64,000 nucleotides of DNA. Source: Rhodobacteraceae bacterium Alg238-R152. Its GTDB lineage: Bacteria; Pseudomonadota; Alphaproteobacteria; Rhodobacterales; Rhodobacteraceae. The translations under genes and the position numbers were made by a program. Where the stretch lies: contig UNRJ01000008.1 of the NCBI GenBank assembly GCA_900537125.1, positions 62,001 to 126,000 on the forward strand, in the 5' to 3' direction. Below, piece after piece: positions 1-63,923 of this stretch; position 1 is the stretch's first letter; the number at the start of each line of letters is the position of its first letter. The notes below the pieces were generated by a model. It was not told the origin of the DNA, made no database searches, and worked only from the letters and a program-made list of their open reading frames with translations.

Positions 1-915
1 GCGGCATTGGGCACGGTGAAAGCCTTGCGGGCTGGGCAATATGTGCGGCTGCATAATTTGGTCTCCGGGGAGGTCTGGCGCAGTTACACGGTGTCCGCCA
101 AAGCAGAGGGACAGCTGCGTATTTCGGTTAAGCGTGATCAGGGGCCGGGGTCACAGGCGGTTCATGCGCTGGCGGCGGGGGGGCAACTGGTGATGAGTGG
201 GCCTTTTGGCGCAGCCACGTTGCGACCGGAGGCATCTGCGGTCACGTTGGTGAGCGCGGGGATCGGGATTACGCCAACAGTCGCCAAGCTGCGCGAACTG
301 GAGGCAGAGGGATGGCAGAAGCCGGTACAGGTGGTGCACGTGGCACGCAGCCGTGAGGCGGCGGCGTTGTGGGCGGAATGTAAGACACTGGCCGCAGATC
401 TGCGACAGTCAACACTGACGTTGTACCTGTCGCAGGCGGAAATGCCGGTTGAAGGAGCCGTTACAGGGCGACCGGATTTGGTGGATTTGGCGACGTCTGT
501 CGCGGAGGCCGATGCAGATGTGCATGTCTGCGGGCCGACTAGGTTTGTGACTGACTTTGAGGCTCATTTGGCGGCGGCTGACGTGGCTGCGGAGCGGGTG
601 TTTGTCGACCGATTTGCCTCACCGGGGGCGGCTGCGGACATGCGCGATATTCCTGAGATTGCATCGGTGCAGGTTACGCTAGCGCGGTCCAATGTCAGTG
701 CAATCTGGACCCCGTCTGACGGGTCTTTGTTGGAGTTTGCCGAAAAACACGGCGTGTTGCCGTCGTCCCATTGTCGGGCAGGCCTGTGTGGCAGTTGCAA
801 ATGTGGCATCAAAGAAGGGCAAGCGACGCGGTTGGCTGGGCCGGAGGGAGAAGACAGCAAGCAGACGTTGATCTGTTCCTCGGTGCCTTCGGGGCCGCTG
901 GTTTTGGATTTGTGA
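1..915 (+). CDS. Flavin/2Fe-2S oxidoreductase, phthalate dioxygenase reductase-like (5' end cut by window)
   Basis: The reading frame is open to the first base, so the N-terminus lies outside the window. The visible 300 residues hold a flavin-binding reductase domain with an RSYTVSA motif near residue 25, an NAD(P)-binding domain with GIGITP near residue 85, and a C-terminal plant-type 2Fe-2S ferredoxin domain with HCRAGLCGSCKCG and a fourth cysteine in LICSS. The order flavin-NAD-ferredoxin is that of the PDR/VanB reductases, which pass electrons from NAD(P)H to a partner oxygenase. Some proteins of this kind carry an extra N-terminal MOSC domain, which cannot be judged here. No oxygenase partner gene is visible downstream; the next gene is convergent. 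The family assignment is firm and the substrate is unknown. Confidence 0.85.
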   Translation, partial: AALGTVKALRAGQYVRLHNLVSGEVWRSYTVSAKAEGQLRISVKRDQGPGSQAVHALAAGGQLVMSGPFGAATLRPEASAVTLVSAGIGITPTVAKLRELEAEGWQKPVQVVHVARSREAAALWAECKTLAADLRQSTLTLYLSQAEMPVEGAVTGRPDLVDLATSVAEADADVHVCGPTRFVTDFEAHLAAADVAAERVFVDRFASPGAAADMRDIPEIASVQVTLARSNVSAIWTPSDGSLLEFAEKHGVLPSSHCRAGLCGSCKCGIKEGQATRLAGPEGEDSKQTLICSSVPSGPLVLDL

Positions 916-37400: not shown

Positions 37401-38117
37401 ATGAGAGTGCTGCTGGTCGAAGACGATCCTACAACATCAAAAAGCATCGAAATGATGCTGACTCACGCAAACCTGAATGTCTACGCCACTGATTTGGGCG
37501 AAGAAGGCATCGATTTGGCGAAGCTTTACGATTACGACCTTATTTTGCTGGACCTGGGCCTGCCGGATATGACTGGCCACGAAGTCCTGCGTCAGTTGCG
37601 CACCTCGCGCATCGACACCCCGATCCTGATCTTATCTGGTGCAGACGATACCGAAAGCAAGCTTAAGGGCTTTGGCTACGGTGCCGACGATTACCTAACC
37701 AAACCGTTCCATCGCGAAGAGCTGGTGGCGCGTATTCATGCGATTATCCGTCGATCCAAAGGCCATTCCCAGTCAATTATTAAGACCGGCCAGATTAACG
37801 TGAACCTAGACGCAAAGACCGTAGAGGTCGAAAACAAGCCTGTGCACCTGACCGGCAAAGAGTACCAGATGCTAGAGCTGCTGTCCCTGCGCAAGGGTAC
37901 TACGCTGACCAAAGAGATGTTCCTGAATCACCTCTACGGTGGCATGGATGAGCCCGAACTGAAAATCATCGACGTCTTTATCTGTAAGCTGCGCAAGAAG
38001 CTGTCAGAGGCGACCGGTGGAGATAATTACATCGAGACCGTTTGGGGGCGTGGCTATGTGCTGCGCGATCCGGAGCCGGTTGCTGGTTCTGATGACCCAG
38101 TAGCGATGCGCGCCTAA
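37401..38117 (+). CDS. ctrA: Cell-cycle response regulator CtrA
   Basis: CtrA is the OmpR-type master regulator of alphaproteobacterial development; in Rhodobacterales it controls motility, gene transfer agents and related traits. The 238-residue protein has a receiver domain with the phospho-accepting Asp51 ([11 protein letters not shown]), a conserved Lys in [15 protein letters not shown], and a C-terminal winged helix with [17 protein letters not shown] and [11 protein letters not shown]. The start at 37401 has AAGGA upstream. It is preceded by a CtrA-like box and sciP. Its phosphorelay partners (CckA, ChpT) are not in the window. Confidence 0.98.
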
Positions 38118-50829: not shown

Positions 50830-51993
50830 GTGAACAATGCAATGTGGACATACCCTTGGGATGTCGCCGATATTGGACAGGAAGCCGTTTCAAAAGAGCT
50901 ACAAGATCTCGGATTTGATACAATCAGTTTGGCTACGGTTTACCACGCGGGACGGTTCTTGCAGGTACGCAGTCCTAAGCGGCGGGCGTATTTCCCAGAA
51001 GACGGCACGCTCTATTTTCGCCCTGATCCCGCAATCTGGAAAGGGCAGGCTGTGCAGCCGCTGGTTTCATCTCTGGCGCAAGAACAGGATGTGTTGCGTG
51101 GCATGATTGACGCCCGAGACAAAGGGGGATTGGACGTGTCCTGTTGGACGGTGTGCCTGCACAACTCGGCCCTTGGGTTTGCCAATCCCGACCTTGTGAC
51201 GCGGAATGCTTTTGGGGATGCCAACTCCTACAATCTCTGCCCAGCAAATCCAAAGGCACAGGCCTATGTGGGAAATTTGGTCAGCGATATTTCGCAGAAC
51301 TACCAACCAAACCGGATTGAGTTGGAGAGCCCCAATTTTCTCGGATTTGCGCATGATTACCACCATGAGAAAGACATGGTTGGATTGCCGCTCGAAGGTG
51401 ATTTCCTGATGGCATTGTGTTTCTGTGAGCATTGCCGGGCAGCAGGGCAAACTGCTGGGTTGGATATCGCTGCGTTGCAAACTCGCGTGAGAGCCATGAT
51501 TGATCAGATGTGTGCCGCAGATACGCCGCAACGACTGTGCCCGGATTTCCCCGACAAAGGACTGGACGCATTTGATTTTGACGCGGAGTTGCGCAGCTAT
51601 CTTGAGCTGCGGTTTATCCATGTAAACGCAGTGCTAGGACAAGCAAAATCCACCTGTGCAACTTCTACGGAGTTGATGTTAATTGATGGGCAAGCAGGTT
51701 GGCTTGGTGGAGTGGATCACGTAGCCGCGGCAGAGATTGGACTGAAGATTATGCTCTGCGCCTATGACATGGGGGCGAATGCGGCGCAGGAATTGGCGGC
51801 ATACGCGATGTCTTTGCCAAAGGACGCGGGTGGACAGGTTGGTTTGCGTTTGGGGTATCCGGAATTTTCCGGTCAAGAGGCGTTTGGCGAGCGTGTAAGC
51901 TTGTTGCGTCAAAAGGGTATGACAGGGCTCAACCTCTACAATTTTGGTTTGGTGCCAAAGGCACGGCTCGATTGGGTGCGCGGGGCACTGTAA
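50830..51993 (+). CDS. Unknown protein, probable TIM-barrel (glycoside-hydrolase-like)
   Basis: The 387-residue cytosolic protein reads MNNAMWTYPWDVADIGQEAV and continues with alternating strands and helices that suggest a (beta/alpha)8 barrel. Candidate active-site acids sit in RIELESPNFLGF and YPEFSG. A Cys-rich stretch, ALCFCEHCRAAG near residue 200, may bind a metal or stabilise the loop. The start is a GTG with AAGGAAA upstream. It stands alone after rpsI. I do not recognise the family by name; similarity to alpha-amylase-like or fucosidase-like barrels is only an impression. Confidence 0.6.
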   Translation: MNNAMWTYPWDVADIGQEAVSKELQDLGFDTISLATVYHAGRFLQVRSPKRRAYFPEDGTLYFRPDPAIWKGQAVQPLVSSLAQEQDVLRGMIDARDKGGLDVSCWTVCLHNSALGFANPDLVTRNAFGDANSYNLCPANPKAQAYVGNLVSDISQNYQPNRIELESPNFLGFAHDYHHEKDMVGLPLEGDFLMALCFCEHCRAAGQTAGLDIAALQTRVRAMIDQMCAADTPQRLCPDFPDKGLDAFDFDAELRSYLELRFIHVNAVLGQAKSTCATSTELMLIDGQAGWLGGVDHVAAAEIGLKIMLCAYDMGANAAQELAAYAMSLPKDAGGQVGLRLGYPEFSGQEAFGERVSLLRQKGMTGLNLYNFGLVPKARLDWVRGAL

Positions 51994-52083: not shown

Positions 52084-52099
52084 TTAACGATTGATTAAC
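52084..52099 (+). promoter_or_regulatory. Perfect CtrA box upstream of the multiheme cytochrome operon
   Basis: The 16 bases read TTAA-N7-TTAAC, the full CtrA consensus. It lies 57 bases before the first cytochrome gene. A rough base-frequency estimate gives less than one chance match per window for TTAA-N7-TTAA. Confidence 0.65.
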
Positions 52100-52155
52100 C
52101 AATATCCGTAAAACTCTTTACGTGATTAATTTGTATTTTTGTTTTGGAGGGTCGC

Positions 52156-52830
52156 ATGGCATTGCCATCTGCCCGAAGTGTACGTCTTTGGGCTGTGTTG
52201 GCTTTTTTGCCCACCGCTGTTTGGGCAGGGTTTGCTTTGACGCATACGGAAACTCAAACATCAATTGCTCACGGACCTCTGATTGAAGCGCACGCAGGTG
52301 TTGCGTGCGCAGAGTGCCACGTCAAGACGGCTGGTACGGTGCGTCAGCAAATTCAAGCGCAGATTCGATACTTGGTTGGGGTGAGAGAGACACCAGTGGA
52401 TTTTGGCTATGCTGAGGTGCAGTCAGCGCAATGTTTGGCTTGCCATTCGCGTCCAAATGAGCGCCACCCAATTTATCGGTTCCGAGAACCGCGCTTTGTT
52501 AAAGCCGTAACAGATGTGGATGCACGTAGTTGTTTGGGGTGTCATTCGGAGCACATCCCTCAGATTGTGACGGAGATGCCAACGCTGTGTCAGGCCTGTC
52601 ACGGTGACCTGACGTTGAAGAATGACCCCGTTGATGTCTCGCATGAAGACCTCATTGCGCAGAGAAACTGGGAAAGTTGTTTGGGGTGCCATGACTTCCA
52701 TGGCAACCATCCTTTCCAAACACCAACCACACTAACGGACAGGGTGGCCGAAGTTGCGATCTGGGCGTATTTCCAAGGAGGGGAAGATCCCTTTGGCGGC
52801 CCCAAATTTTATAAGGGCAAAGCGCCATGA
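52156..52830 (+). CDS. Pentaheme c-type cytochrome, membrane-anchored
   Basis: The 224-residue protein has an N-terminal hydrophobic segment at residues 9-28 and five heme c motifs: CAECH (51-55), CLACH (93-97), CLGCH (126-130), CQACH (145-149) and CLGCH (175-179). Many extra His residues (39, 46, 104, 133, 163, 182, 185) can act as second ligands. The pattern resembles NapC/NrfB-type electron transfer proteins but is not a close match to either. I chose the ATG at 52156, five bases after GGAGG. Its stop overlaps the next gene by four bases, and a CtrA box precedes it. Confidence 0.85.
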   Translation: MALPSARSVRLWAVLAFLPTAVWAGFALTHTETQTSIAHGPLIEAHAGVACAECHVKTAGTVRQQIQAQIRYLVGVRETPVDFGYAEVQSAQCLACHSRPNERHPIYRFREPRFVKAVTDVDARSCLGCHSEHIPQIVTEMPTLCQACHGDLTLKNDPVDVSHEDLIAQRNWESCLGCHDFHGNHPFQTPTTLTDRVAEVAIWAYFQGGEDPFGGPKFYKGKAP

Positions 52831-53699
52831 CACTGACGCGTATCATGTTTGTTGGTGGCTTTGCCTGTCTAGCAATATATCTACTAGTGTCCGCCCCTGA
52901 GCCTTTGCCGGATGGGGACATGCGCGCCGCTGGATGTCGCCACCCCGTGAACGCGATGTTTGATGGGGTGAATGCCATCAACCAGGTTGCGCGGGGGATT
53001 TACACCAAGAGGATTGTTGGTGGAGGCCTGGCTGCGGGGCTGAAATTCGGGGAAGATTGGCAAGAGCCAGGTGTGGAGCAAGGGCCATTGCCGGCGCTGT
53101 TTCTCCGGGCGACAGCGGCGCATTTGGAAACATTACCGCCACGGTTGGGATTGTTCCTTGGCTCAGATGCGCCAATCAACAAATCCAATTTGATTGGTGA
53201 AGCACAAAAGGCCGTATTTTCGGAGGTAAAATCCACCCGTGTGGCGGCGTATTCCGAAGATACACAGATTGGTTTTGTCGCGATGTATCCGGATGTTGCG
53301 GGTGTTGCGCCCTGTGTGACTTGTCATAATGACCACGTCGATAGTCCCAAAAAGGACTGGAAACTCAATGATGTGATGGGAGCAACCACCTGGACGTACC
53401 CGGAGGCCGAGGTCTCAGCGGATCAGTTTTTTGCAGTGGTGGATGCGGTGTACACTTCGGTTGCGCATACCTATGGTGCATACCTCGATAAAACCGCTGA
53501 TTTTGCACAACCCGTGGCAATTGGCGATGCGTGGCCCAGCACAACCCAACGTGTGCTCCCCACCACAGAAGCATTTTTGGAAGAAGTCAGACAGCAGGCG
53601 GCACCCGCCTTGGTGCAGGCAATGATGCATGATCGCCAACCACCTTCTAGCCAAATGGCTGTGCAAGCCTCTCGAGGAGATGTGTCATGCGGGTTCTGA
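52827..53699 (+). CDS. Tll0287-like (DUF3365) monoheme cytochrome c
   Basis: The 290-residue protein has a short N-terminal hydrophobic segment and the Tll0287-like pattern: LPALFLRATA, LFLGSDAPINKSN and the heme site CVTCHNDHVDSPKKDW (residues 163-178), a sequence characteristic of DUF3365, often used as a periplasmic heme sensor domain. Here it stands without an output domain. It overlaps the pentaheme gene by four bases and the membrane gene by 13, so translation of the three is coupled. Confidence 0.85.
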   Translation: MTLTRIMFVGGFACLAIYLLVSAPEPLPDGDMRAAGCRHPVNAMFDGVNAINQVARGIYTKRIVGGGLAAGLKFGEDWQEPGVEQGPLPALFLRATAAHLETLPPRLGLFLGSDAPINKSNLIGEAQKAVFSEVKSTRVAAYSEDTQIGFVAMYPDVAGVAPCVTCHNDHVDSPKKDWKLNDVMGATTWTYPEAEVSADQFFAVVDAVYTSVAHTYGAYLDKTADFAQPVAIGDAWPSTTQRVLPTTEAFLEEVRQQAAPALVQAMMHDRQPPSSQMAVQASRGDVSCGF

Positions 53700-54175
53700 A
53701 GGCAACGCTGCAACGCTCCCCTTATGTTTTGCCCATTGTCCTGTGTGTCTTACTTGGGGCGACCTTTTTGGCCCTCGAAATACGGCCAGTGGCAAGGCAG
53801 CTTACCGGGTTTGCGCAGCAGGTGATCACGGGCCTTATACTACTGGTTTTTCTTGGCTACCAATGGGTGCTATTTTTCATGCGCGTCACAAAACAAACAG
53901 GAAATGCGCGGAAAGCCCTTGTGCGACATCGATGGGTCGGCGTGGCGGTCACGTTTGTGTTTGCCGTTCATGCCGTACGCTTTGGTCATATTTGGATGAG
54001 CACGTTGAGTGCTGTGGTGTTTTTGATTGCGGTGACTGGGGTGCTTAACCGTGAAGTGCTGCGGTATCGCAGCAATGCAATTTATCTGTGTTGGCTGGTT
54101 TTACACATCGGCTCTTCCGCAGCCTTGGTGCCTTTGGTGGCAGTGCACATCTGGGTGGCACTCGCCTACCAATAG
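53687..54175 (+). CDS. Membrane diheme cytochrome b, ferric reductase-like transmembrane domain
   Basis: The 162-residue protein has five predicted helices. Two histidine pairs spaced exactly 13 apart are seen, His81-His95 and His140-His154, the arrangement that binds two stacked hemes in ferric reductase and NADPH oxidase type proteins. No flavin or NADPH domain is present, so the electron donor or acceptor must be a partner, most simply the two heme c proteins encoded in the same operon. The protein could carry electrons across the inner membrane. Confidence 0.75.
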   Translation: MRVLKATLQRSPYVLPIVLCVLLGATFLALEIRPVARQLTGFAQQVITGLILLVFLGYQWVLFFMRVTKQTGNARKALVRHRWVGVAVTFVFAVHAVRFGHIWMSTLSAVVFLIAVTGVLNREVLRYRSNAIYLCWLVLHIGSSAALVPLVAVHIWVALAYQ

Positions 54176-62630: not shown

Positions 62631-62959
62631 CCCGGTGTGGTGACAAGCCAGAACCAGCGTTTTCCGAGCCTTGGCATGCACAGGTGTTTGCGATCACTGT
62701 GGCCTTAAACGAGGCGGGGCATTTTGCCTGGAGCGATTGGGCAGAGCGGTTTGGGGCAACTTTGAAGACGCATGGTCTTTCAAAAGAGTTGGACGGCGGG
62801 GAGGACTACTTCAACGCGTGGCTGGAAACGCTGGAGGGGTTTCTGGCGGAGACAGGGCTGGCCGAGGCTGGCGCAATGCGGCAATTAAAAACGGCGTGGA
62901 CAGAGGCTTATCTCTCCACGCCGCATGGGATGCCGGTCAGGTTGGCAGAAGTGGGCTAG
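62627..62959 (+). CDS. Nitrile hydratase accessory/activator protein (P14K-like)
   Basis: The 110-residue protein has the accessory-protein pattern: FSEPWHAQVFAITVALNEAG at the N-terminus (a beta-subunit-like helical part) and WSDWAERFG further on. Such proteins shuttle the cobalt-bearing alpha subunit into the enzyme. The ATG overlaps the nthB stop by four bases. Its stop overlaps the convergent lipoprotein gene by four bases. No separate cobalt transporter is in the window. Confidence 0.85.
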   Translation: MTRCGDKPEPAFSEPWHAQVFAITVALNEAGHFAWSDWAERFGATLKTHGLSKELDGGEDYFNAWLETLEGFLAETGLAEAGAMRQLKTAWTEAYLSTPHGMPVRLAEVG

Positions 62960-63840
62960 CGTTTGGCACCGAAGGAGCCGATGTAATTGCCACCTTGGAC
63001 GGGAAGCTCGAAAGTGCCGCCTACTTCGGCCGCGTCATTTCCATAAAAGTTACCGTCAACCGTGCCTGTTGCATAACTACTGTCTTCAGCAGTTACGTTT
63101 GCCGAAAAACTTGTGCCTTCAATGGTACCAGTTCCAGAGAAATCAAACGCACTACTGGTGCGTGTACCACGTGCACCAGAGAGATTGGTGCCTCTCGTAT
63201 TGCTGCTGGAAATAGAAATATTCTCGAAGTCGCTGGTTGAGAGTTCGATGTCAGACTCTGTTGCATAATAGTGTCGTCCACTGATCCTTGCGAGACCAAT
63301 TGATTTGCCTGTGTATCGCGCGGAACCACTGGTTGGCATATCGTTTGCGGATGTTTTTGTTCCATATACAGCAGCGGTAGATCTGCCAGAAGTTGCGCCA
63401 TCAAAATCCATCCATGCGCCGTAGACCGTGTGGTCCAAGTTGGTTGCATCTGAATTTGAAAGAACGGCCAAAGACTGGTCGCTAGGGCTAACAAATATCG
63501 AGCGATACGTTTCGTTGATCACCTCATCGCCTGCATCAGTGTCGGCCTTAAAGCTAGAATTGTCAGCAGATCCGGACGCCGCGACCACATCTTTGTCCCG
63601 AAATTTGGCGGAAAGCGTGCTGTTTGATCGGCTCGTATCCCCTGACGTAAGGATATACCCACTGTCTGTTCGCCGCTCAAAGTTGGTGGTAACGGCATCA
63701 CCAGTTGCGGTCACTTCTCCATCGTCAGGCAGTTCTGAAATGCTGGTAAATGGGACCGCAGAGGTAGACCCGCCCCCACATGCAGAAAGTGTCGAGAGAA
63801 GTAGCGCCGTTGGGGCGAAATTTTTGTGCAGAGACAGCAT
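62956..63840 (-). CDS. TbpB-like surface lipoprotein
   Basis: The 294-residue protein has a lipoprotein signal with lipobox LSAC near residue 21, followed by a Ser/Thr/Gly-rich beta-strand region. The last 80 residues have the transferrin-binding-protein-like barrel pattern (GTIEGTSFSANV, VDGNFYGNDAAEVGGTF and the final GSFGAKR). Such TbpB-like proteins, also called Slam substrates or HupL-like, bind or transport metals or act at the surface. A perfect CtrA box lies 69 bases upstream of the start. It is convergent with the nitrile hydratase operon. Confidence 0.8.
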   Translation of the reverse strand: MLSLHKNFAPTALLLSTLSACGGGSTSAVPFTSISELPDDGEVTATGDAVTTNFERRTDSGYILTSGDTSRSNSTLSAKFRDKDVVAASGSADNSSFKADTDAGDEVINETYRSIFVSPSDQSLAVLSNSDATNLDHTVYGAWMDFDGATSGRSTAAVYGTKTSANDMPTSGSARYTGKSIGLARISGRHYYATESDIELSTSDFENISISSSNTRGTNLSGARGTRTSSAFDFSGTGTIEGTSFSANVTAEDSSYATGTVDGNFYGNDAAEVGGTFELPVQGGNYIGSFGAKR

Positions 63841-63908
63841 GGTGATTCCAAAATTAGTAAATTCCGGATGCAGCCTTAGCGTGTATTGTTTGCAAGTGCA
63901 CGAGGCAG

Positions 63909-63923
63909 TTAATGAATGGTTAA
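63909..63923. promoter_or_regulatory. Perfect CtrA box between the lipoprotein gene and the right-edge frame
   Basis: The 15 bases read TTAA-N7-TTAA. The site is 69 bases upstream of the lipoprotein start (minus strand) and 24 bases before a possible plus-strand start at 63947, so it could regulate either. Confidence 0.6.

Follow-up and report, generated by a model that had tools for sequence, protein, structure and literature searches.

The window analysed here, 64 000 nucleotides of contig UNRJ01000008.1 from Rhodobacteraceae bacterium Alg238-R152, carries an operon of three overlapping genes (the trio). They code for a membrane-anchored pentaheme cytochrome c (P0001), a membrane-anchored stand-alone heme-Cache protein (sCache_heme; P0002) and a five-helix membrane protein of the diheme b type (P0003). 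We propose, with a probability of about one half, that the trio is a minimal electron relay across the inner membrane, in which the sCache_heme protein is the likely site of chemistry or ligand binding, with nitric oxide (NO) or a nitrogen oxide as the likeliest partner, and that the operon is regulated by CtrA. The conduit reading is drawn from relatives in which the diheme b domain is fused to NAD(P)H–flavin–[2Fe–2S] reductases beside multiheme c and sCache_heme genes. The component parts are of known kinds. No description of such a trio was found in the open-access literature (most subscription papers lie outside this search), in agreement with a preliminary description of this DNA, made from the sequence alone, which knew of no named system of this composition.

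According to PMC12889525 (this and the other papers are cited from portions of their text), nearly half of the heme-Cache domains stand alone and their role is open. The operon would wire one subfamily to a membrane diheme b protein, with NAD(P)H reductases also connected in relatives. The subfamily would thereby have a definite electron source, open to testing, and a class of candidate substrates (globin genes are often nearby, nitrate genes sometimes). The available portions of that paper contain no wording on operons, multiheme proteins, genomic context, globins or cytochrome b, and ‘gene neighborhood’ occurs there in a reference only. DUF3365/Tll0287 domains appear elsewhere in chemoreceptors (PMC8396549), in a histidine kinase (PMC7726332) and as a table entry (PMC9230427); PMC3770913 handles globins and cytochromes apart.

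Table 1. Coordinates of the operon, its upstream box and the presumed regulator gene in the window.
Feature	Position	Strand	Length (amino acids)	Remarks
CtrA-type box TTAA-N7-TTAAC, TTAACGATTGATTAAC	52084-52099	+		exact pattern match; first base 72 bp 5′ of the pentaheme start codon
P0001, membrane-anchored pentaheme cytochrome c (cytochrome c3/c7-like)	52156-52830	+	224	
P0002, membrane-anchored stand-alone sCache_heme (DUF3365/Tll0287, PF11845) monoheme c	52827-53699	+	290	
P0003, five-helix diheme-b-type protein	53687-54175	+	162	homologue of the C-terminal membrane domain in reductase fusions
ctrA, presumed regulator acting at the box	37401-38117	+	238	outside the operon; NF045991 428.6 bits (cut-off 350)

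The three proteins of the trio and their distribution

The genes of the trio overlap by 4 bases (P0001/P0002) and 13 bases (P0002/P0003), as the preliminary description had it. That account had also placed a perfect TTAA-N7-TTAAC box before the genes and described an anchored pentaheme cytochrome and a DUF3365 monoheme protein without output domain. All of this is confirmed: the box is exact, P0001 has five CXXCH motifs and a hydrophobic N-terminal segment, and P0002 matches PF11845 and has one CXXCH and no further Pfam domain.

P0003 carries two His pairs of the form H-X13-H, H81/H95 on transmembrane helix (TM) 3 and H140/H154 on TM5, and all four residues are invariant in 12 aligned sequences of the family. 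The five helices and the two pairs had been recognized before; the partners are 14 residues apart and not 13, as then stated. Two H-X13-H pairs are the hallmark of the ferric reductase/NADPH oxidase superfamily. The pattern is not specific by itself, three chance open reading frames (ORFs) having also matched it, and homology was therefore checked separately (see below). The AlphaFold2 model shows five long helices and a short N-terminal one (mean predicted local distance difference test score 74.9). The positive loops 66-82 and 122-128 and the N-terminus suggest an N-in, C-out topology, with H81 and H140 on the cytoplasmic side and H95 and H154 on the periplasmic side, and the protein is predicted to hold heme b. 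DUF4405 reaches 14.3 bits with P0003, under its cut-off of 26.7, and there is no Ferric_reduct match. A scan of 12 family members at E ≤ 1 yields DUF420 in eight (best 0.0012), DUF4405 in seven (best 3.4e-7) and Ferric_reduct in six (best 0.0063). Escherichia coli superoxide oxidase (5OC0) was rejected as a structural match (E 5.5).

In P0001, five His (46, 104, 133, 163 and 182) beyond those of the five CXXCH motifs are invariant in 12 aligned pentaheme proteins. The same five extra His are invariant in a second set of nine proteins, which includes those of loci L013, L014, L093 and L094 and of Flammeovirga. All five hemes can thus be bis-His-ligated, which would make the protein a wire rather than an enzyme. 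The NrfB equivalog model gives 21.3 bits (cut-off 166.6); the matches to NrfB, HmcA, ExtN/ExtO and flavodoxin models all lie far under their cut-offs and were discarded. A PDB sequence search with P0001 returned nothing useful, and no nrfA was seen among the neighbours in general family scans of the window's proteins.

P0002 scores 32.9 bits against PF11845 (gathering score 24.1). It has an N-terminal anchor and is extended at its C-terminus by nearly 100 residues. In its heme c motif, CVTCH, the two Cys and the His are invariant across 16 aligned sequences. In a Foldseek search with the P0002 model the best match is Tll0287 (5B82, E 5.2e-3), with none at 1e-3 or below, and PDB sequence searches with P0002, profile A3 and the sCache_heme protein of genome G511 gave nothing useful. 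The 16 sequences have no invariant Cys, Met or His outside CXXCH except H170, three residues past the heme His, and the sixth position of the heme therefore appears to be open or only loosely occupied; Met184 is nearly invariant. The heme of Tll0287 has an axial Cys (PMC12889525). No such Cys is invariant in the P0002 family, and an A[IV]xVC-type Cys is present in the DUF3365 domains of L049, L054 and L055 (position equivalence judged by eye). The heme of GSU0935 has a labile Met60, and GSU0582 and GSU0935 bind NO and CO (PMC8396549). The sole Cys-less, HAMP-linked sCache_heme tested binds NO tightly (PMC12889525).

A search of genome contigs with P0003 gave 14 loci, and the trio has the same gene order in every one. 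The loci come from Shimia (S. sagamensis DSM 29734, at L005, among them), Thalassobius, other Rhodobacteraceae (labelled Roseobacteraceae or Paracoccaceae) and two Granulosicoccaceae metagenome bins. The trio is also found in five further genomes of the window's family, so that the synteny check proposed in the preliminary description turned out positive. P0003 is rare within this family: it was found in seven of 394 sampled genomes, including that of the window, and the other six have the trio (G230 was taken to be the same genome as L012). In the sCache_heme tree the trio-linked proteins form one clade (36 of the 50 rows, support 100/99), and 14 other DUF3365 rows, among which long branches were flagged, stand apart; the tree omits L002, L004, L006, L101, L103, L105, L106 and the remaining extracted DUF3365 domains. 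The two Granulosicoccaceae proteins (L013 and L014) branch among the rows of the window's family, joined to L025 at 93/82, which is below firm support; this hints at lateral transfer.

In Rhodobacteraceae the genes flanking the trio, rplM-rpsI and tetR/ppk2/metA, gave no functional clue and seem to reflect nothing more than synteny; in the distant loci scanned, the neighbours are unrelated. An ORF of 387 amino acids (50830-51993, +) lies between rpsI and the trio and is present in five of the 14 related loci. It belongs to no Pfam or NCBIfam family, its GHL10 match being at chance level only. At one Granulosicoccaceae locus, a gene for an HNOBA (heme-NO-binding associated)-GGDEF-EAL protein (L013:1571-3454, -) is upstream of the trio and divergent from it.

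Relatives with reductases, globins and nitrate genes

Six of 398 genomes of the phylum matched profile A3, and in two of them (G511 and G529) sCache_heme genes lie beside multiheme genes. The gene adjoining the decaheme (G511) or undecaheme (G529) cytochrome codes for a flavoprotein with a BFD [2Fe–2S] domain, combined with Pyr_redox in G511 and with FAD_binding_6/NAD_binding_1 in G529. The C-terminal part of both flavoproteins is a membrane domain that repeats the two H-X13-H pairs of P0003. The sCache_heme profile matches the G511 protein with a probability of 98.8%, and the pentaheme profile matches the G511 decaheme with 98.5%.

P0003 resembles the membrane domain of a BFD-FAD-NAD fusion at locus L093 (BLASTP E 1e-13, 31% identity). 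Compared by hhalign, profile A1 of the P0003 family matches this domain with a probability of 97.3%, the L094 protein with 98.0% and P0004 of Flammeovirga with 97.7%. Against an alignment of ten fusion domains, nine of the Pyr_redox type and one of the FNR type, it gives 62.9% (E 7e-5) with all four His in register.

In the class of G511, inferred to be Gammaproteobacteria, profile A5 matched 43 of 274 genomes at E ≤ 1e-14, weaker matches lying mostly in long frames. The best matches were 26 in 24 genomes, at 2.1e-50 or better, and the loci of 21 of these were examined (L093-L112 and L066; left out were G927, G949, both G943 matches and the second G823 match). As they were chosen by the sCache_heme bait, these loci show linkage of the other parts and not that sCache_heme is necessary. 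A multiheme c gene accompanies sCache_heme at all 21, with five CXXCH in L093 and L094, ten in 18 others and six in L105, where the ORF is short and lies 273 bases from the end of the contig. Diheme b ORFs are present at 20 loci (at L105 the contig ends first): 18 are fused to a reductase, one is separate (L094) and one is a contig-end fragment (L101). The fusions are NirB/Pyr_redox-like in 17 cases and BFD-FAD-NAD in one (L093); their Pfam domains were checked directly in L066, L093, L100 and L110 and otherwise through BLAST or phmmer.

Globin-type genes neighbour 14 of the 21 operons (12 globins and two truncated haemoglobins, this naming confirmed by Pfam), a class I cytochrome c gene adjoins ten and an NrtA-like gene seven. 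The two NrtA-like proteins scanned match the general NMT1_2 family only. At L099 the ATPase scores 352.4 bits, over the nitrate ABC transporter cut-off of 291.8, and the permease stays under its own (166.8 versus 209.05). L100 has NapF over the cut-off, a NapD-like protein below it and a partial NapA at the locus end, and L097 has a partial NarG and a full NirB. The decaheme forms give c3/MtrC-like Pfam matches, with the DmsE-family decaheme models below cut-off. Outside this class, plasmid p1 of Flammeovirga kamogawensis carries in a row hemA, a globin gene, sCache_heme, a diheme-b protein of 158 amino acids, a ferredoxin-NADP reductase (FNR/Fer2) and a pentaheme gene. For the L065 reductase the best NCBIfam match is flavohemoprotein, below cut-off (128.7 versus 432 bits).

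Two further genes recur near these operons. An Alginate_exp gene, resembling an outer-membrane barrel, is found at three of the 21 (L095:2278-3516, L097:7545-8750 and L098:13666-14874). A response-regulator-like gene is found at seven (L098:15186-15776, L100:5395-5976 and five more loci); the name ‘NasT-like’, given to it by eye, was not confirmed by NCBIfam.

The CtrA-type box

The exact box occurs twice in the window, versus 0.14 expected from shuffled sequences. Genome-wide the pattern is not enriched (24 strand hits versus 33 for a reversed control pattern), so that a single box proves nothing; single-box genome statistics were dropped and conservation was used as evidence instead. The footprint was established on 18 loci of the window's family (the window, L001-L012 and L022-L026), together 292 867 bases. 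At 16 of them the 260 bp before the pentaheme gene contain an exact TTAA-N7-TTAA box; in L011 and L023 the corresponding position is taken by a box with one mismatch. The same sequences contain 18 exact boxes in all, and only two of these lie elsewhere. The distance from the box to its anchor is 65-110 bp in 15 of the 16 exact cases (for L023-L026 this anchor is the first aligned residue); in L026 it would fall from 220 to 136 bp if an upstream ATG is the start. In an alignment of the upstream regions of 13 loci no column is invariant outside the box; within it, those of TTAAC and three of the second half-site are. The window and L001-L006, being closely related, do not count as independent here, and P0001 is about 50–56% identical to the pentaheme proteins of L007-L012 and L022-L026.

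The two Granulosicoccaceae loci do not share the family box: L014 has none, and L013 has one 173 bp upstream of the aligned start. This is expected of bacteria that, to our knowledge, lack CtrA.

A TTAA-N7-TTAAC consensus served to find CtrA sites in Dinoroseobacter shibae (PMC4046655). With a conserved upstream site of this type, the operon is probably under direct CtrA regulation in the window's family. The CtrA link made in the preliminary description is in this way made likely by a phylogenetic footprint. The cell-cycle control deduced there does not follow, since the CtrA regulon of Rhodobacterales spans, among others, motility, gene transfer agents, quorum sensing, cyclic di-GMP (c-di-GMP), an H-NOX NO sensor and cell-cycle control (PMC7232146).

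Separately from the question of function, the box could be a chance motif or one of another regulator. The lack of genome-wide enrichment would fit this, as would the half-sites that it has in common with Dnr/Fnr sites (PMC7232146). We consider it quite improbable, in view of a position kept at all 18 family loci with at most one mismatch, the direct-repeat spacing of the CtrA consensus (PMC4046655) and the presence of ctrA in the window.

The second exact box of the window, TTAACCATTCATTAAC, lies at 63908-63923 (-). Its first base is 83 bp upstream of an ORF of 294 amino acids (62956-63840, -) with a lipoprotein-like start, a distance to be compared with 72 bp at the trio.

The proposed relay, rival functions and known systems

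In the proposed relay, electrons would enter P0003 at the cytoplasmic side. This is the direction of flow that we infer from the reductases and diheme b domains that share one chain, where entry from the cytoplasm and exit via multiheme c to sCache_heme are most likely. The donor in these relatives would be NAD(P)H, acting through the FAD and [2Fe–2S] domains fused to diheme b. As the family flanks hold no reductase module, the donor in the window genome is assumed to be the quinol pool or an unlinked reductase. Transfer across the membrane would use b hemes at H81/H140 and then H95/H154, and the bis-His pentaheme P0001 would carry the electrons along the periplasmic face. The relay would end at P0002, whose heme is the sole one without a recognised conserved protein sixth ligand and hence the likely site of chemistry or ligand binding. 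It may keep this heme reduced for the scavenging or reduction of NO, or set the redox state of a periplasmic NO/redox sensor. What points to nitrogen oxides is the affinity for NO that some sCache_heme domains show, together with the globin and nitrate-transport-like genes near 14 and seven of the 21 operons. The transmembrane conduit of the preliminary description is supported indirectly, by reductase fusions in relatives that keep multiheme c and sCache_heme and by a pentaheme capable of bis-His ligation.

The window has a relative of the FNR-type reductases at 16-840 (+), 33.7% identical over 184 residues to the L065 domain and more than 50 kb from the trio; it may be an unlinked donor or an unrelated reductase. 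The window genome also has one stand-alone single-domain globin gene (G000:C1:11025-11435; L114:5025-5435), which resembles those of the relatives' operons. Two H-NOX (HNOB) genes are located elsewhere in this genome.

Several results weigh against this proposal, whose weak step is the end reaction with NO or nitrogen oxides. No catalytic site was identified in the trio, and the P0003 model, of moderate confidence, has no significant PDB match in Foldseek. The sole stand-alone sCache_heme tested, which has the Cys, binds NO weakly, and NO binding is still not tight in its C59A variant (PMC12889525); absence of the Cys alone does not predict NO binding. The counts of adjacent globin and nitrate genes come without a random-operon baseline, and the globins might point to chemistry of O2 and not of NO. 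A tblastn search with the relatives' globin, reductase, NrtA, NirB and hemerythrin found none of them at the 19 Rhodobacteraceae and Granulosicoccaceae loci, nor within 50 kb of the window's trio; the only matches were two of the FNR type in the first 840 bases of the window. The single-domain globin gene of the window genome is unlinked to the trio. No Cu nitrite reductase over the cut-off was found in that genome (other NO sources were not searched for). Upstream of 17 operons there were no consistent FNR/DNR-type sites, with one-mismatch sites in two (L106 and L107). The barrel-like gene near three of the 21 operons fits an export function, considered next.

The trio might serve general electron export to the periplasm or beyond, to a metal, an electrode-like acceptor or a periplasmic enzyme, with sCache_heme as just another carrier. 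A multiheme c and an inner-membrane diheme b make up the plan of CbcL (PMC9129911), redox roles have been proposed for stand-alone sCache_heme (PMC12889525), the decaheme forms match c3/MtrC-like models and, below cut-off, DmsE-family ones, and the barrel-like gene adjoins the L095 operon and has homologues at L097 and L098. The globin and nitrate neighbours point elsewhere. sCache_heme is present at all 21 loci, but these were selected by it. We regard export as possible but doubtful. Electron import, in which periplasmic or quinol electrons would pass inward to a cytoplasmic globin or a nitrite-assimilation flavoprotein, is very unlikely. It would account for the presence, adjacent or fused in relatives, of globin genes and of NirB-like domains, which by their nature belong to the cytoplasm. 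These reductases, however, already own NAD(P)H-binding domains, no conserved periplasmic donor enzyme was seen, and by tblastn the window's family has no globin or NirB partners next to the trio.

The preliminary description had named a heme-based sensor relay as the other option, and here too the reductases matter, since their fusion suggests flux over signalling. In such a relay sCache_heme would sense NO or redox state, diheme b and pentaheme would report or reset it, and an unlinked kinase or cyclase would receive the output. Members of the fold family that are fused to output domains act as sensors (PMC12889525), no conserved Cys, Met or His sixth ligand is recognised in P0002, CtrA regulons include c-di-GMP and H-NOX genes (PMC7232146) and one Granulosicoccaceae locus has the HNOBA-GGDEF-EAL gene upstream. 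As the loci examined showed neither an output domain nor a conserved signalling partner, this function appears unlikely. The relay that we prefer could also be extended: the trio would then be the core of widespread, undescribed redox machines running from NAD(P)H or quinol through diheme b and multiheme c to a heme-Cache acting as periplasmic NO reductase or scavenger, captured by CtrA in Shimia-type Rhodobacteraceae. We hold this extension to be speculative; if it is true, heme-Cache is a sensor fold used as an enzyme or descended from one.

Each part of the trio recalls a known system and departs from it. Like the ferric reductase/NADPH oxidase superfamily, DUF4405 and DUF420, P0003 has two H-X13-H pairs, with weak matches to these families, and its relatives have a flavin reductase fused or adjacent. 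It differs from that superfamily in scoring under the Pfam cut-off, in having no flavin domain of its own and in its presumed acceptor, c hemes. P0001 is similar to NrfB-like pentaheme and cytochrome c3 and c7 carriers, being a small periplasmic wire with five c hemes, all possibly bis-His; unlike the NrfB-like carriers, it is membrane-anchored, and its NrfB score is below cut-off. P0002 shares with the Tll0287/DUF3365 proteins (Tll0287 5B82, GSU0582/GSU0935) its domain, the CXXCH motif and its best PDB match, 5B82. It differs in the lack of a conserved axial Cys, in its own clade, anchor and long C-terminal extension, and in the multiheme c and diheme b genes that share its conserved operon.

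As for whole systems, the globin and FAD/NAD reductase side by side in relatives of the trio recall flavohemoglobin and globin–reductase NO dioxygenases; here the globin is separate, none lies next to the window's trio and a periplasmic heme chain is added. The CbcL-type inner-membrane quinol oxidoreductases of Geobacter likewise combine a diheme b membrane part with an all-bis-His multiheme c (PMC9129911), a likeness of composition, taken from the published description and not from a sequence comparison. The trio is distinguished from CbcL by separate small genes, five transmembrane helices instead of six, the added sCache_heme and the NAD(P)H reductases fused in its relatives.

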